This document shows, in pieces, positions 29,847-47,267 of a DNA stretch of 64,000 nt. The DNA is from Saccharopolyspora sp. SCSIO 74807 (GTDB lineage Bacteria; Actinomycetota; Actinomycetes; Mycobacteriales; Pseudonocardiaceae). Each line of letters starts with the position of its first letter. The first letter of the stretch is position 1. The notes beneath the pieces are model-generated. The model ran no database searches. It was not told the origin of the DNA and worked only from the letters and a program-made list of their open reading frames with translations. Made by a program: the position numbers and the translations under genes. The DNA lies in the NCBI RefSeq assembly GCF_037023755.1, contig NZ_CP146100.1:2982001-3046000 (forward strand). The letters are read 5' to 3'.

Positions 29847-31931
29847 TCAGGCGAGGGGGAGCCCGGTGGCCTCCGCTAGGAAGGCGATCTGGTCGGTCGC
29901 GAGCCCCACGGTACGCGACACCGATCGCGCGGAATGTCCCACCTCGGTCTCCCTGCGCAGCAAAACCGGCCGCTGCGCCGGATCCGAACTCGTCGCGTGC
30001 TGCAGCGCCGCGCACATCTTGCGCGCGTGGTTCGGATCCACCCGGGTGTCCGATTCGTAGACGGTCAGCAGCACGGCCGGGTAAGCGGTGCCTTCGGTGA
30101 CCGCGTGGTACGGCGAGTAGGACAGCAGCCAGTCCAGCTCTTCCGGATCCTCGGCCGTGCCGTACTCGTCGTTCCAGGTGCGGCCCAGCAGGAACTTCTC
30201 GTAGCGCACCATGTCCAGCAGCGGCGCGGAGCACACCACCGCGCGGTACAGCTCCGGGCGCTGGGTCAGCGCGGCGCCCACCAGCAGACCGCCGTTGGAG
30301 CCGCCGGTGACCGCCAGTTGACCCGGCGTGGTCCAGCCGGTCTCGATCAGGTGCTCTGCCGCGGCGTGGAAGTCGTCGAAGACGTTCTGCTTGCTCTCCC
30401 GCATCCCGGCCCGGTGCCACTGCTGGCCTTCTTCGCCGCCGCCGCGCAGCGACGGCTCCGCCCACACGCCGCCCGCGGCGACCCAGGACAGGGCGATGGT
30501 GGAGTAGCCGGGCTCCATCGACAGCGAGAAGCCGCCGTAGCCGGTGAGCATCGCCGGGCGCGGGTGGTCCGGTTCGCGGGCGGGCGCCAGCACGAACATC
30601 CGCACCGCGGTGCCGTCCTTGGAGGTGTAGGTGACCTGCGAGGTGTGCACCTCCGGCAGGTCCACCGCGCCCGGAGCGCGTTCGGCGATCCGCGTGCGGC
30701 CCTCGGCCCGCGAGTACACGTGCACGCACGGCGGGGTCGCGAAGTCCGTCCAGCCGATCCACAACCGGTCCGCGTCGCCGTCGGTGTCCTCGTCGAGCGT
30801 GGTGAGCGCGGTGATCTGGCCGGTGCCCGGTAGCGGCACGTCCGCGGTGCGCTCACCGGTGACCGGGTCGTGCAGCGTCAGCTCGGAGACCGCGTGCCTG
30901 GTGCGCAGCACCACCAGCTTCGGGTCGTCGGTGCCGTCGTCGAACCAGCGCACCGCCTCCAGCACCGAGTCCGGTTCCTCCGGGATCAGTTCCGTCCAGT
31001 TCTGCGGCTCCGGTTCTTCCGGGTCGGCCACGCACAGCCGCCAGCGGTCCGCGCCCAGCGTCGTCAGCACGTACAGCCGCCCGTCCCGCTCCACCCAGGC
31101 CGAGACCTCGACGTCCGCGGAGATGTCCACGATCTGCCGAAGCTCGCCCCCGGTGGTCAGATCGGCGATCCACACCGAGTCGCGCGGGGCGGTGCCCGGA
31201 CTCCCTCCGACCAGCAGCCAGCGGCCGTCCCGCGATACGCCGGTGCCGTAGTAGAAGGTGTGGTCCAGGCCGTCGCCGTGGATCAGCTCGTCGTCGTCCG
31301 GGTGCCTGCCGATGAGGTGCCGCCACACCCTGCGGTGAAACTGCTCCTCGCCGTCCGGAACCGCTTCCGGCGGCAGCCTGCGCACGTAGAAGAACTCCGC
31401 GCCGCCGGGCAGCCAGGAGATCGACGAGTAGCGGCACCGGTCGATGGGGCCTTCGAGCTGCTCACCGGTGGTCACGTCCAGCACGTACAGCAGCGATTCT
31501 TCGTCGCCGCCGACCGAGATCTGGTACGCCAGCCGCTCGCCCTCCAAGCTCGGCGACCAGCTGTCCAGCGTCGTCAGCCCGCTCGGGTCGATGGTCGTCA
31601 CGTCCAGCAACGGGCGTTCCGAGCCGTCGCTTTCCCGCAGGTACAGCACCGGGAATTCCTGCCCGGGGTCGCGGCGGGTGAAGAACGCCCGGCCCGCCCG
31701 CCAAACCGGGACGGAGACCGAACCGGCCGAGAGCAGCGAACGCAGCCGCTCGCCGGTTTCGGCGCGGCCGGGAAGCTCCTCCAGCCAGGCGCGAGCCAGC
31801 TCGTCCTGCGATTTGGACCAGGACTCGGTCCGCGGGTCCGCGGGGTCCTCGAGCCACCGGTACGGGTCGGCGACCCGCCTGCCGTGCAGCTCGTCGACGG
31901 TGTCAGCGCGTTCGGCGGGGGGATACGACAT
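29847..31931 (-). CDS. Prolyl oligopeptidase family serine peptidase (S9A)
   Basis: About 694 residues. The N-terminal seven-bladed propeller begins with the family signature VADPYRWLEDPADPRTESW; the C-terminal alpha/beta-hydrolase domain carries GYGGFSLSMEPGYS, the nucleophile in GGSNGGLLVGAALTQRPELY, the acid in YESDTRVDPNHARKM and the catalytic His in TEVGHSARS. Cytosolic by absence of a signal peptide; it cleaves short peptides after proline. ATG 31931 is used; GTG 31952 adds seven residues (VSKVAPP). It is on the same strand as the MscS gene, 193 bp upstream of it. Confidence 0.94.
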   Translation of the reverse strand: MSYPPAERADTVDELHGRRVADPYRWLEDPADPRTESWSKSQDELARAWLEELPGRAETGERLRSLLSAGSVSVPVWRAGRAFFTRRDPGQEFPVLYLRESDGSERPLLDVTTIDPSGLTTLDSWSPSLEGERLAYQISVGGDEESLLYVLDVTTGEQLEGPIDRCRYSSISWLPGGAEFFYVRRLPPEAVPDGEEQFHRRVWRHLIGRHPDDDELIHGDGLDHTFYYGTGVSRDGRWLLVGGSPGTAPRDSVWIADLTTGGELRQIVDISADVEVSAWVERDGRLYVLTTLGADRWRLCVADPEEPEPQNWTELIPEEPDSVLEAVRWFDDGTDDPKLVVLRTRHAVSELTLHDPVTGERTADVPLPGTGQITALTTLDEDTDGDADRLWIGWTDFATPPCVHVYSRAEGRTRIAERAPGAVDLPEVHTSQVTYTSKDGTAVRMFVLAPAREPDHPRPAMLTGYGGFSLSMEPGYSTIALSWVAAGGVWAEPSLRGGGEEGQQWHRAGMRESKQNVFDDFHAAAEHLIETGWTTPGQLAVTGGSNGGLLVGAALTQRPELYRAVVCSAPLLDMVRYEKFLLGRTWNDEYGTAEDPEELDWLLSYSPYHAVTEGTAYPAVLLTVYESDTRVDPNHARKMCAALQHATSSDPAQRPVLLRRETEVGHSARSVSRTVGLATDQIAFLAEATGLPLA

Positions 31932-32219
31932 GGGCGGCGCAACCTTGCTCACGTCCGCCGACGATACGGGTGCGAAGCGTCGCCGCGGCGGCCTCGCCGC
32001 GGTGTCGGGCGAATTCACCCTGAACGATCAACATCTGAAGCAATACGATCGGCGTGGGTACCGGCGGTCGTGCCCGGCGTCCACGGGCGGGCCCGGTGTT
32101 CCCCGGCAGTCGTAGCGATCTCCGCATCGACACCGCGCCGCTAGCACGTGGCGAATCACACGTGCGTTCGGGGCAGCGTCTGTGGTCGACTGGTCCTGCC
32201 GAACGGTGGAGGTGGTCGC

Positions 32220-32849
32220 GTGCCCGACCGAAAACCGACTCCGACGGGCGCAGCCCACGGGCTGGCGCCCCGGACCGGGCTGTGCTCGGTTCCGTCCCGG
32301 ACTGCCGGACCGTCGGGTGATCCTCCCGCGTCGTGGCGCAAGCGGCGGGTGCTGCTGCTGAACACGACCTTCGAGCCGCTGACCGCGCTTCCGCTGCGCC
32401 GGGCCATCGTGCTGCTGGTCTGCGGCAAGGCCGAGGTGGTGCACGGCGACTCCGCGGGGCTGATGCTGCATTCGGCCACCGCCAGCCACCAGGTGCCGTC
32501 CGTGATCCGGTTGAGCAACTTCGTGCGGGTGCCCTACCGCGGCCGGGTGCCGCTCACCCGCTCCGCGCTGATGCACCGCGACGGGCACCGCTGCGTGTAC
32601 TGCGGAGTTCGCGCCGAGACGATCGACCACGTGGTACCGCGCAGCCGGGGTGGCCCGCACGCCTGGGAGAACTGCGTCGCCTGCTGCACCAAGTGCAACC
32701 ACCGCAAAGCGGACAAGACGCTGAGCGAGCTGGGCTGGTCGTTGCCGGTGGCGCCGCGTGCGCCGCGCGGGCGGAACTGGCGGTTGATCGCGGGCCTGAC
32801 GGAGACCGATCCGCAGTGGCTGCCGTACTTGGGTGAGGCCGCGGCGTAG
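32220..32849 (+). CDS. HNH endonuclease family protein
   Basis: A 209-residue protein with a C-terminal HNH nuclease fold. The core begins KRRVLLLNTTFEPLTALPLR; zinc/ββα motifs are RDGHRCVYCGVRAETIDHVV, then PRSRGGPHAWENCVACC and KCNHRKADKTL (four zinc cysteines CxxC...CxxC and the DH/N/H set). The start is GTG 32220, 7 nt after a perfect GGAGG at 32208-32212, giving a 45-residue Pro/Arg-rich N-terminal tail not usual in homologues; GTG 32349 is the minimal alternative. It is the positional counterpart of Rv2469c. Stop is 9 bp from the convergent GVRIS-repeat gene. Housekeeping role unknown. Confidence 0.9.
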   Translation: MPDRKPTPTGAAHGLAPRTGLCSVPSRTAGPSGDPPASWRKRRVLLLNTTFEPLTALPLRRAIVLLVCGKAEVVHGDSAGLMLHSATASHQVPSVIRLSNFVRVPYRGRVPLTRSALMHRDGHRCVYCGVRAETIDHVVPRSRGGPHAWENCVACCTKCNHRKADKTLSELGWSLPVAPRAPRGRNWRLIAGLTETDPQWLPYLGEAAA

Positions 32850-32858
32850 CCGCCGCAC

Positions 32859-34121
32859 TCAGGCCGCCGCACCGGCGAGCTCCGCACCGCCGCTGATCCG
32901 GACCCCGCGGTCCGCGCCGCTGATCCGGACCCCGCGGTTTTCGCCGCTGATGCGGACGCCGCGTTGCGCTTCGCCGGCCCGCAAGCCCGACTGCCCGCTG
33001 ATGCGCACTCCGCGCTCGGTTCCGCTGATCCGGACACCGCGTTGCTCGCCGCTGATCCGCACGCCGGCCGCAGCGCTGATCCGGACGCCATGCTGGCCGC
33101 TGATCCGCACGCCATGCTGCGCACCGCTGATCCGCACGCCGGCTTGCCCGCTGATGCGCACCCCGCGGTCTGCGCCGCTGATCCGCACACCGTGGGCCGC
33201 GCTGGTCCGCACGCCGCTGTGCCCGCTGATCCGGACACCGCGCTGCTCGCCGCTGATCCGCACACCGGCCGCACCGCTGATCCGGACGCCGCTGCTGATG
33301 CGCACGCCGCTGCGCGCCTCGGCCGGGTTCACGCCGGCGCGCTCATCCAGGACACCGTTCCGGCCGCTGATCCGCACTCCGTGCCCGCTGATCCGCACGC
33401 CTTCGCGGCCGCTGATCCGCACGCCGTGCAGCGCCTCGATCCGGCGCCTGCGCTTCTGGCCGCTGATGCGCACGCCCGCGGAGCTGATCCGAACTCCGCT
33501 GCGACCGCTGATCCGGACGCCGCGCTGCCCGCTGATGCGGACGCCACTGCGCGCGTCGACCCGGTTCCCGTCGGTGCCGCTGATGCGCACCCCGGTTCGC
33601 TGGTCAACGACGCTCGCCCGGTGCTCCTGACCGCTGATGCGCACGCCCGCCTGCCCCAGGATGCCGACGCCTGCCTGACCGCTGATGCGCACCCCGCGCT
33701 GCGCACCGCTGATCCGGACGCCGTGCTGGCCGCTGATGCGCACCCCGCGCTCCGCGCTGCTGATGCGCACCCCGCGCTCGATCGCGCTGATGCGGACACC
33801 GCTGCGACCGCTGATTCGGACACCGCGCTGCTCACCGCTGATGCGCACGCCTGCCGCGGCGCTGATTCGGACCCCGGCCCGGCTGCTGATGCGCACGCCC
33901 CGCTCGGCGCCGCTGATGCGGACTCCGCGCTCGATCGCGCTGATGCGGACACCGGCCCGCGCGCTGATCCGCACGCCCCGCTCGGCGCTGATGCGGACAC
34001 CGCGGTCGTCGCCGCTGATCCGAACACCCGACGCCGTGTGCACACCGTGTTCGGCAAGCGGCTGCGAGCTTGTCGAAAGAGTGAGAGTATTACGCTGAGC
34101 GGCGGTTTTGATGATCGACAT
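32859..34121 (-). CDS. GVRIS-repeat protein (about 43 tandem 8-9 residue units)
   Basis: A 420-residue protein with no recognised family. Residues 1-31 (MSIIKTAAQRNTLTL...) form a unique N-terminal segment without hydrophobic signal or membrane helix. The rest is a tandem array starting at residue 32: GVRIS followed by 3-4 variable residues (GEQ-R, AIE-R, GRS, GQA, GQH). Thirty-eight exact GVRIS copies and about five degenerate ones (GVGIL, GVRTS, GLRAG, GVLDE, GVNPA) are present, with three longer spacers. The protein has no Cys, Trp, Tyr or Phe. A perfect AGGAGG sits 6 nt before ATG 34121. It could be a multi-core peptide precursor, or a beta-solenoid/amyloid-type structural protein. Function unknown. 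Confidence 0.82.
   Translation of the reverse strand: MSIIKTAAQRNTLTLSTSSQPLAEHGVHTASGVRISGDDRGVRISAERGVRISARAGVRISAIERGVRISGAERGVRISSRAGVRISAAAGVRISGEQRGVRISGRSGVRISAIERGVRISSAERGVRISGQHGVRISGAQRGVRISGQAGVGILGQAGVRISGQEHRASVVDQRTGVRISGTDGNRVDARSGVRISGQRGVRISGRSGVRISSAGVRISGQKRRRRIEALHGVRISGREGVRISGHGVRISGRNGVLDERAGVNPAEARSGVRISSGVRISGAAGVRISGEQRGVRISGHSGVRTSAAHGVRISGADRGVRISGQAGVRISGAQHGVRISGQHGVRISAAAGVRISGEQRGVRISGTERGVRISGQSGLRAGEAQRGVRISGENRGVRISGADRGVRISGGAELAGAAA
32889..34028 (-). repeat. Coding tandem repeat encoding GVRIS units
   Basis: About forty degenerate copies of a 24-27 bp unit whose core on the minus strand is GGNGTSCGSATCAGC. Larger blocks recur, for example the AIER unit followed by an xAER unit (coded near 33780 and 33935) and the triplet of units AAA/GEQR/Gxx at three places, indicating segmental duplication beyond single-unit slippage. 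The variable bases fall on third codon positions in the GVRIS frame. Because of the repeats all three nearby frames on either strand stay open for long stretches. Confidence 0.9.
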
Positions 34122-34532
34122 GGTGTGCCTCCTGCGCTTGAATAGCCGAGTTATGGGCAAGTGATCAAATATGCAAGGCCCATACAGGTGAAAAACTAGA
34201 AGCGCGCAAGGGCTCGAACAAGCCGCCAACTCGCCGTCCACTGCAACCTTCTGGATGGGCTCCATTCGGCCGCGATCATTAGTCTGAAAGAGTTACCTTA
34301 CGTGAGACATAACACGGTTGACTAGTGACGTTCAGTAGTTCAACTCCTGCTCACGCCCGTTGTGAACACTCGCTGTAGCTGAACTTTTGGCCACTGAATA
34401 CATAAAGTGATAACGGCTGGAGGCGGTGCCGATCGCGGCCGGAGCGGTCAGCGGCGAACAACGGCGCGGCCGCCGCGACAAGCCCGCATGGACCCGTCCC
34501 ATCGGACGAGGTGATCGGCTACCGTACGGCTC
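34122..34532. other. AT-richer divergent intergenic region
   Basis: A 411-bp spacer between the GVRIS gene (leftward) and a small membrane protein gene (rightward). The stretch from about 34135 to 34420 is visibly AT-richer than anything else in the window. Leftward, TTGATC and TATTCA spaced by 18 nt lie just upstream of the AGGAGG site and are a possible promoter. An inverted GTTCAG/CTGAAC pair lies near 34330 and 34380. No ORF is supported here. Confidence 0.5.
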
Positions 34533-34772
34533 GTGACTGTCGTGGAGACCTTGCTCGTCCTGGTGGCGATCCCAGCGGCCGTGTACGGCCTCGCCACGCT
34601 GATCGCGCTGTGGCCGAAGCTGACCCGCAACCGCTACCGCGCCGGCCAGGACTGGAACTTCGACCCGGTCTTCTGGGTCGCCGACCCGGCGAGCACGAGC
34701 ACTGCGCCGGAAGGCGCCGCTTCCGCGCGGGCTGCCAGCACCGATCGGGGAGGCGCACATGGGAACTGGTGA
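34533..34772 (+). CDS. Small single-pass membrane protein
   Basis: A 79-residue protein with one N-terminal membrane helix (VETLLVLVAIPAAVYGLATLIAL), then WPKLTRNRYRAGQDWNFDPVFWVADP and a low-complexity tail. It overlaps the next gene by 14 bp and is probably co-translated with it. The GTG start is preceded by TACCGT 8 nt upstream, suggesting a leaderless mRNA; no Shine-Dalgarno is present. Similar short proteins precede DUF5130 genes in actinobacteria. Function unknown. Confidence 0.75.
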   Translation: MTVVETLLVLVAIPAAVYGLATLIALWPKLTRNRYRAGQDWNFDPVFWVADPASTSTAPEGAASARAASTDRGGAHGNW

Positions 34773-35268
34773 GATCGCTACGCCCGGGCACGGCCCGGAC
34801 GGGCAACCGTCGGAATCCGAACTCGCCACCGGCGAGGTGCTGACCGCCACCGGACGACTGTCGATCGCCCGCCGGGTCGAACCGCAGCGGCCGAAGCTGC
34901 CGTTCAGCCCGGCGCAGCTCGCCCGGATCGACGAGGCCCTGACGCTGTCCAGCCGCAGCACCGGGCTGGAGTTCGCGATCTACCTCGGCGACCTGGGCGA
35001 GGACACCCGGGAGTTCGCGGGCGGGCTGCACGCCAACCTCGGTGCGCGGGCCGCGGAAGGGGTGCTGGTCGCGGTGTCGCCGCAGCAGCGGCGCGTGGAG
35101 ATCGTCACCGGCGAGGAGTCCAAGCGCCGGGTGCCGGACCGCAGCTGCCAGCTCGCCCTGATGAGCATGGTCGCGTCGTTCAAGGAAGGCGAACTGCTCG
35201 AAGGACTCATCAGCGCGTTGCGGATGCTGTCCGACGCCGCAGGAACGCAGCACTCCGCGGCGCACTGA
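34759..35268 (+). CDS. DUF5130 family protein (TPM-like)
   Basis: 169 residues. The C-terminal two thirds (LTLSSRSTGLEFAIYLGDLGEDTREFAGGLHANL...GVLVAVSPQQRRVEIVTGEES) resembles the TPM-type fold of DUF5130. No signal peptide or membrane segment is evident, so it probably acts with the small membrane protein upstream. It is the positional counterpart of Rv2468c. ATG 34759 follows GGGAGGCGC. A strong bidirectional terminator follows. Function unknown. Confidence 0.83.
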   Translation: MGTGEIATPGHGPDGQPSESELATGEVLTATGRLSIARRVEPQRPKLPFSPAQLARIDEALTLSSRSTGLEFAIYLGDLGEDTREFAGGLHANLGARAAEGVLVAVSPQQRRVEIVTGEESKRRVPDRSCQLALMSMVASFKEGELLEGLISALRMLSDAAGTQHSAAH

Positions 35269-47088: not shown

Positions 47089-47267
47089 GCCGCCGTCCGC
47101 ATCCCGCGCAGACGCCTCCGCCAGCCGAACCGCCCTACTCACCGGCCCCGGCGGGTCTTCGTTCCCCAAGTCCTCACCGACGAGAGCCGCCGTCAAAACC
47201 CCGCGCAGACGTCCCCGTCAGCCGAACCGCCCTACTCACCGGCCCCGGCGGGTCTTTGTCTCCCAAG
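47089..47267. repeat. Tandem duplication, 97-bp period, in non-coding DNA
   Basis: Two 82-bp copies (47089-47170 and 47186-47267) with a 97-bp period, about ten mismatches, separated by 15 bp. The shared core reads AGCCGAACCGCCCTACTC and onward. It lies in the non-coding space (46987-47417) between the MFS gene and tRNA-Gly, which otherwise holds nothing recognisable. No palindromic repeat or spacer pattern, so it is not CRISPR. Confidence 0.8.

Follow-up and report, generated by a model that had tools for sequence, protein, structure and literature searches.

What is a protein for that consists almost entirely of one pentapeptide, repeated dozens of times? Such a protein is encoded in a 64,000-nucleotide stretch of DNA (hereafter the window) from Saccharopolyspora sp. 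SCSIO 74807, a member of the Pseudonocardiaceae, a family known for antibiotic producers. The gene, a 420-aa open reading frame with orthologues, occupies 32859..34121 on the minus strand, which the first-pass annotation had left unstated, and starts with an ATG at 34121. A ribosome binding site, AGGAGG, is indeed well placed (34128..34133, minus, 6 nt before the ATG), and because it supports 34121, this start is preferred over an upstream ATG that would give a protein of 468 aa. The first core comes after a 31-residue N-terminal leader (34029..34121, minus), as had been noticed before, and this segment is recognisably similar within the genus. The array that follows (32889..34028, minus) holds 38 exact GVRIS copies by computation and five degenerate units counted by eye (GVGIL, GVRTS, GVLDE, GVNPA, and GLRAG), mostly 8 or 9 residues apart, in agreement with the earlier count of about 43; a degenerate stretch within it, residues 255-271 (33309..33359, minus), has an AF2 confidence below 50. 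The C-terminal tail is GAELAGAAA plus the stop codon (32859..32888, minus). The window protein has no Cys, Trp, Phe, or Tyr, as first described, and relatives do have a few, so this is not a general property; it also shows, by inspection, no hydrophobic signal or membrane segment.

Reading frames other than the minus-strand one are also partly open across the array, because the repeat is GC-rich and its units come in multiples of 3; only the minus-strand frame comes with a ribosome site, promoter-like boxes, and conservation of its amino acids. The 38 15-mers that encode GVRIS are invariant at the first two codon positions; at the third, the Gly, Val, and Arg codons vary and those for Ile and Ser do not. 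Because positions 1 and 2 are fixed and position 3 is variable, the repeat is neither chance nor a DNA artefact. The gene is the single match at E ≤ 0.001 in its own genome (6,688,468 bases, one contig), and named relatives come from Saccharopolyspora sp. HNM0986, at 97% in the best segment, and from NFXS83, at 58%. Two other tandem repeats were seen in passing, namely a 97-bp repeat of 1.8 copies with 87% matches at window positions 47089-47267, near tRNA-Gly and tRNA-Pro genes, and an unrelated perfect array of PENRRTGE in another genome of the genus (G004, locus L021, reverse complement from base 1512).

No acceptable domain model from Pfam, NCBIfam, PHROGs, or PADLOC covers the repeat, consistent with the initial remark that no family with this repeat was known. 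Sarcoglycan_1 (PF04790) scores the window protein at 33.4 bits versus a cut-off of 32.5; its best stretch consists of repeats only, and members of that family carry a membrane anchor. Because the repeats alone align and no membrane segment is seen by inspection, this match is judged spurious. DUF2345 (PF10106) stays under its cut-off for the window protein (23.6, cut-off 30.7), and one relative, L080, passes the Pfam cut-offs for DUF2345 (4e-32, 111.6 bits; beta-helix-type), DUF3540, and ChapFlgA, the DUF2345 score probably being due to repeat similarity; L080 is also matched by phrog_15773, of unknown function (1.7e-10). Weaker beta-helix-type Pfam scores were obtained for L105 and L073, and none for L097 and L150, two of the five relatives scanned. 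A defence gene was considered and set aside, with no PADLOC match in three proteins. Sequence search of solved structures returned no relative at E 0.01, and a literature search on the repeat gene, judged from listings and abstract openings, found nothing.

The gene lies between an HNH endonuclease-like gene (32148..32849, plus, convergent; HNH_5, 3.8e-11) and a DUF5130 gene (34759..35268, plus, divergent; 3.7e-36); domain matches thus bear out both flanks named by the first-pass annotation, and we used them as syntenic markers. As an aside, the best NCBIfam scores of the HNH neighbour (32148-32849) are with Cas9d and IscB models, at 50 bits, far under their cut-offs. The repeat gene is present in all six genomes searched of Saccharopolyspora, its own included, and a profile of six genus members found matches in 88 of 297 family genomes, in 17 of 46 genera (E ≤ 1e-6). 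From these 17 genera, 40 loci were fetched; in 38 of them, covering all 17, DUF5130 and HNH flank the gene and are both encoded on the other strand, the exceptions being truncated stretches (L074 with no DUF5130 match, L098 with no HNH match). For 30 further genera whose representative had no profile match, the DUF5130-HNH interval was read in one genome each, one of them (L162) belonging to g22, a genus already counted. An array with the same or another core is found in 21 of these 30 intervals, and two more hold short versions: a mini-gene in L164 (1213-1308, plus) of four GVRIN hexamers and 31 aa with a ribosome site, the shortest clean version seen, and a 49-aa gene with three GVRVN cores in L146 (2529-2678, plus), immediately preceded by a perfect copy of the 5' element described below. 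Altogether, the repeat gene is at the DUF5130-HNH locus in 39 of 46 sampled Pseudonocardiaceae genera, including one (L138) with two cores only that looks decayed; it was not found there in seven (g3, g4, g5, g29, g37, g38, and g43), and the stretch fetched for g5 yielded no HNH gene either.

The gene was not found at 20 loci from other families of the order; HNH is near DUF5130 in only 14 of these, and the comparison is exact only there. One of these loci, L196, has three GVRV/GIRV words in one frame, which are taken for chance. The first-pass annotation had read the gene as a lineage insertion. We rejected this on the synteny seen across 39 genera: the gene is no isolated or recent insertion, although it was not found at the 20 loci outside the family. 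Profile matches outside the family occur in 3 of 29 matching genomes (G495, G498, and G555); G495 and G498 were rejected as members, their matches falling in Arg/Ala-rich frames without the core, as were weak GTRVT-profile matches with no array in G009, G042 (two), G317, G349, and a second place in G036 (E 8.8e-8 to 8e-4). A mobile origin was likewise discarded: tblastn of the window protein against 50,697 phage records found nothing, and against 72,556 plasmid records it gave one weak match, to a Halocatena plasmid (43.5% over 20% of the query).

Could the neighbours tell what the protein does? In the window, they include peptidase M1, an Rv2466c-like nitroreductase, a hydrolase, prolyl oligopeptidase, an MscS channel, globin, and alpha-amylase, and seven named neighbour genes were traced in 50 further loci. 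HNH, MscS, and globin are kept in five of the seven genera without the repeat gene, and HNH and globin in a sixth. The neighbours therefore offer no clue to function, since HNH and globin stay in six of seven genera that lack the repeat. Many genera have the prolyl oligopeptidase gene (29847-32018), which lies between HNH and MscS in the window; it was not found in the stretch fetched for any of 19 GTRVT loci, the five of g46 among them (the L148 stretch being only 3 kb), nor in that for the g19 locus. We rejected it as a processing partner because it is not found beside GTRVT arrays while other genera have it. The same surroundings bear on the earlier proposal of a multi-core modified-peptide (RiPP) precursor with a short leader. 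A leader followed by repeated cores, with an N-terminal segment similar within the genus, is what such a precursor would look like; however, ten window neighbours scanned with Pfam, two of them without a match, include no known RiPP enzyme, the recurrent frames of the 40 loci (not annotated individually) coincide with the window gene positions, and HNH and globin persist where the repeat gene is absent. With no linked modifying enzyme seen and a leader that is weakly constrained in five of nine usable groups (see below), we give this proposal only the slightest chance.

The cores themselves are more informative. Counted with the pattern [GSD][VTI]R[IV][STHE] (units outside the pattern are uncounted), 1191 of 1203 cores in 62 members are identical to the main core of their own protein; near-cores with one change number nine in L074 and zero to three in the other members. 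GTRVT is the core in 15 genera, GVRIS in 9, SVRIT in 5, and GTRIT, GVRVT, and GVRIH in 2 each, while GIRVT, GVRIE, GVRIN, and GVRVN are found in one genus each, the core type per genus being judged on 1 to 5 members. The core is thus private to the genus, the same within a genome and differing between genera; a single genome seldom combines I with V or S with T, even though each alternative is used by whole genera. The main core has beta-branched residues at positions 2 (V/T/I) and 4 (I/V) and Arg in the middle in 39 of 39 genera, a uniformity that is partly built in because the search pattern itself requires those residues. A small residue (A, G, or S) follows 767 of the 866 cores whose next core is at least 8 away. 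Core-to-core distances are mostly 9 (394), 8 (312), and 6 (286), with 7 being rare (29, in six genera), and many GTRVT members have a period of 6 with an R, R, small pattern at position 6 (by eye). Copy number ranges from 3 to 60 cores.

Codon usage tells which of these features are under selection. When same-peptide cores of the 62 members are compared in pairs, third codon positions account for 33131 differences, first positions for 2754, and second positions for 1246. In the 9-residue units of six proteins, picked by a loose pattern so that some differ in core, pS of the core is 0.33-0.61 and pN 0-0.10; for spacer residues 7-9 of the same units, pS is 0.31-0.56 and pN 0.13-0.45. Purifying selection clearly acts on the core amino acids, and because cores and spacers are similarly diverged at synonymous sites, the copies are held by selection and are not products of recent duplication. 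Spacers are near neutral in four of the six proteins tested, where their pN/pS is 0.79-1.06; those of L080 (0.59) and L097 (0.28) are not neutral. For the leader, pN/pS is 0.20-0.34 in g13, g17, g22, and g35 and 0.73-1.16 in g1, g26, g46, g2, and one GTRVT group of five genera; g8 and g23 were left out, having almost no synonymous change and hence no trustworthy ratio, which leaves nine usable groups, five of them with weak constraint on the leader. In summary, selection maintains the core with its following small residue, the sameness of the cores in any one genome, and the 5' element, and it leaves copy number free and, in many cases, spacers and leader too.

Such a pattern may come from a multivalent ligand, in which a flexible chain presents each core as a beta-strand to one copy of a partner whose pocket co-evolves with it, the chain acting as scaffold or sponge. 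The short, strict, and beta-strand-like core suits this idea, as do the near-neutral spacers in four of six proteins and the range from 3 to 60 copies. Redundant sites, however, should allow sloppy copies, yet 1191 of the 1203 pattern-matching cores are identical, and no partner candidate stands out beside the gene; we regard a multivalent ligand as unlikely.

The chain ends raise another possibility. In 22 of the 62 members (12 of 37 genera) the chain finishes with LAA, and several of these read DFALAA, EYALAA, or NDFSLAA. LAA also ends the tmRNA tag in all 16 genomes examined; of 393 neighbour proteins from seven gene families (not independent), none ends in it. The window protein itself was rejected as a carrier of an SsrA-like degron: it ends in GAAA, and the tmRNA tag of its own genome ends in EFALAA. 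Because of this GAAA end, Clp protease turnover is a guess that we consider plausible for some members only. In yeast alpha-factor precursors, proteolysis releases many copies of one short peptide, and the repeat protein may similarly be a multi-copy precursor from which many copies of an unmodified, lineage-private signal peptide are freed. Many identical copies amid variable spacers, lineage-specific cores, and a free copy number would fit, and the tmRNA-tag-like C-termini in 12 of 37 genera would feed such a chain to Clp. On the other hand, the leaders show no secretion signal by inspection, position -1 of the core has no single conserved residue (R 277, D 229, and others), and selection on the copies is stricter than an additive pool needs, which makes a signal-peptide precursor quite improbable to us.

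Upstream of the gene, a block conserved between species of the genus (34122..34365, minus, far edge approximate) contains a predicted -35 box TTGTTC (34216..34221, minus), separated by a 17-bp spacer from a predicted -10 box TAGTTT (34193..34198, minus), and a conserved 5' element, TTTTTCACCTGTATGGGCCTTGC (34173..34195, minus). Across the family, a sigma-70-like promoter scoring at least 7 of 10 is present in 60 of 62 members, a descriptive figure since positions were score-maximised with no shuffled control; the promoter spacer is 17 bp in at least 56 members, the -35 box is mostly TTGTTC or TTGTCC, and the -10 box is TAGCTT, TAGTTT, and similar. After the promoter comes the 22-nt element TTTTCACCTRTMYGGRYCTTGC, with at least 14 of 22 seed bases in 61 of 62 members (it was not found in L140), at 71-76 nt from the ATG in 56 members and 54 nt in five, all of g8. 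The exact pattern TTTCACCTRTMYGGNYCTTGC occurs once each in 63 of 79 family genomes and in none of 318 genomes from other families of the order, with 0 matches for a reversed control, and is likewise missing from the 97 other genomes in a class sample; among the 16 family genomes without it, some have the gene with a diverged element (e.g., G026, G038, and G048). The element is single copy in the window's genome at ≤ 3 mismatches, and with this one match we dismissed a regulon. Transcription would start inside the element, with the start predicted near 34186-34189; the element would therefore either form the messenger's 5' end or be an operator that overlaps the start site.

Is it then the RNA or the 5' element which functions, the protein being incidental? 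The high conservation of the 22-nt element at a near-fixed distance from the start codon points that way; selection clearly on the core amino acids points against it, as do 22 aligned 5' leaders with two invariant pairs and no covariation, and the lack of an Rfam match. We see a very slim chance for this explanation.

Our favoured explanation, held tentatively and at somewhat less than an even chance, is a cytosolic stack of beta-strands that must match one another. Each core, [GS]-[VTI]-R-[IV]-polar, usually with the small residue, would form one strand, its Arg facing one way and residues 2 and 4 the other, and the spacers, mostly 1, 3, or 4 residues, would form the turns. We infer that the strands stack, either inside one long chain (beta-solenoid) or between short chains (fibril), and that stacking is homotypic, all strands of a genome carrying the same residues with 3 to 60 strands per chain. 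The gene would be made from a housekeeping-type promoter, and turnover by Clp protease would be plausible in those genera whose chain end resembles the tmRNA tag. The cooperative stack is favoured because additive models (peptide store, sponge) would tolerate some faulty copies, which is an argument and not a measurement; the five degenerate units of the window protein and the nine near-cores of L074 speak against it. At 49 and 31 aa, the versions that have three and four cores could not make a solenoid on their own and would need assembly between chains. Ideas on the binding or activity of the stack are speculative; the Arg ladder may bind a polyanion, an idea weakened because net charge varies, from +49 in the window protein to -10 in L080.

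A beta-solenoid or amyloid-like structural protein was the other reading offered at first, and its beta-strand version fits best. The core pattern and its spacing, taken from sequence only, show the alternating strand residues with variable turns of a beta-solenoid. The beta-helix-type Pfam scores of L080, L105, and L073 and the clustering of core distances at 6, 8, and 9 speak for the stack, whereas the lack of such scores in L097 and L150 and the non-neutral spacers of L097 and L080 speak against it. Structure prediction gave a divided answer: nearly all cores of the window protein are drawn as strands by AF2, but confidence is modest (mean pLDDT 63.7 and 61.7), and Foldseek returned no significant structural match. 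Please note that, according to one published paper, AF2 is prone to inventing beta-solenoids for repeat sequences (PMC11795689).

It is unusual that dozens of pentapeptide copies are under purifying selection while the whole set differs between genera, and neither an adequate domain model nor a paper was found for this gene, which is kept at one locus in 39 of 46 genera. Either the copies must match each other, as in a homotypic stack, or they must match a fast-evolving partner; both ideas are testable with short synthetic arrays. One further step, which is possible and which we put forward with doubt, is a self-recognising polymer with a lineage code, in which each strand has to match its siblings, whole arrays switched code (among GVRIS, SVRIT, GTRVT, and others) as genera diverged, and only same-code chains stack. 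Nearly the whole family would then share a cytosolic beta-polymer that has species barriers, or else a peptide system with private codes of an equivalent kind. The locus is also a natural experiment on the concerted change of tandem repeats under selection.

Among known systems, curli-type amyloid and other beta-solenoid repeats differ in that the proteins scanned have no curli-repeat Pfam match, no secretion signal is seen by inspection, and the repeat is far shorter. Multi-copy precursors, such as yeast alpha-factor and multi-core RiPPs, share the many identical short peptides with variable spacers between them; unlike these, the repeat proteins show no signal peptide on inspection, their cores are not flanked by any single conserved residue, and no linked enzyme was seen. 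The left-handed beta-helix of LpxA, LpxD, and GlmU (Hexapep), whose motif is a small or beta-branched residue followed by an aliphatic one, has a six-residue period, and many GTRVT members repeat every 6; however, the best Hexapep score is 26.6 versus a cut-off of 27 (L105), overlays on left-handed beta-helix hexapeptide structures have an rmsd near 12 Å, and no catalytic parts are seen in the repeat proteins. The VgrG/gp5-type beta-helix (DUF2345, Gp5_trimer_C) differs in its spike or hub domain, which the repeat proteins do not have, and in that the exact cores here are genus-private, whereas the likeness lies in the short tandem beta-strand repeats, for which L080 reaches the 111.6 bits given above.
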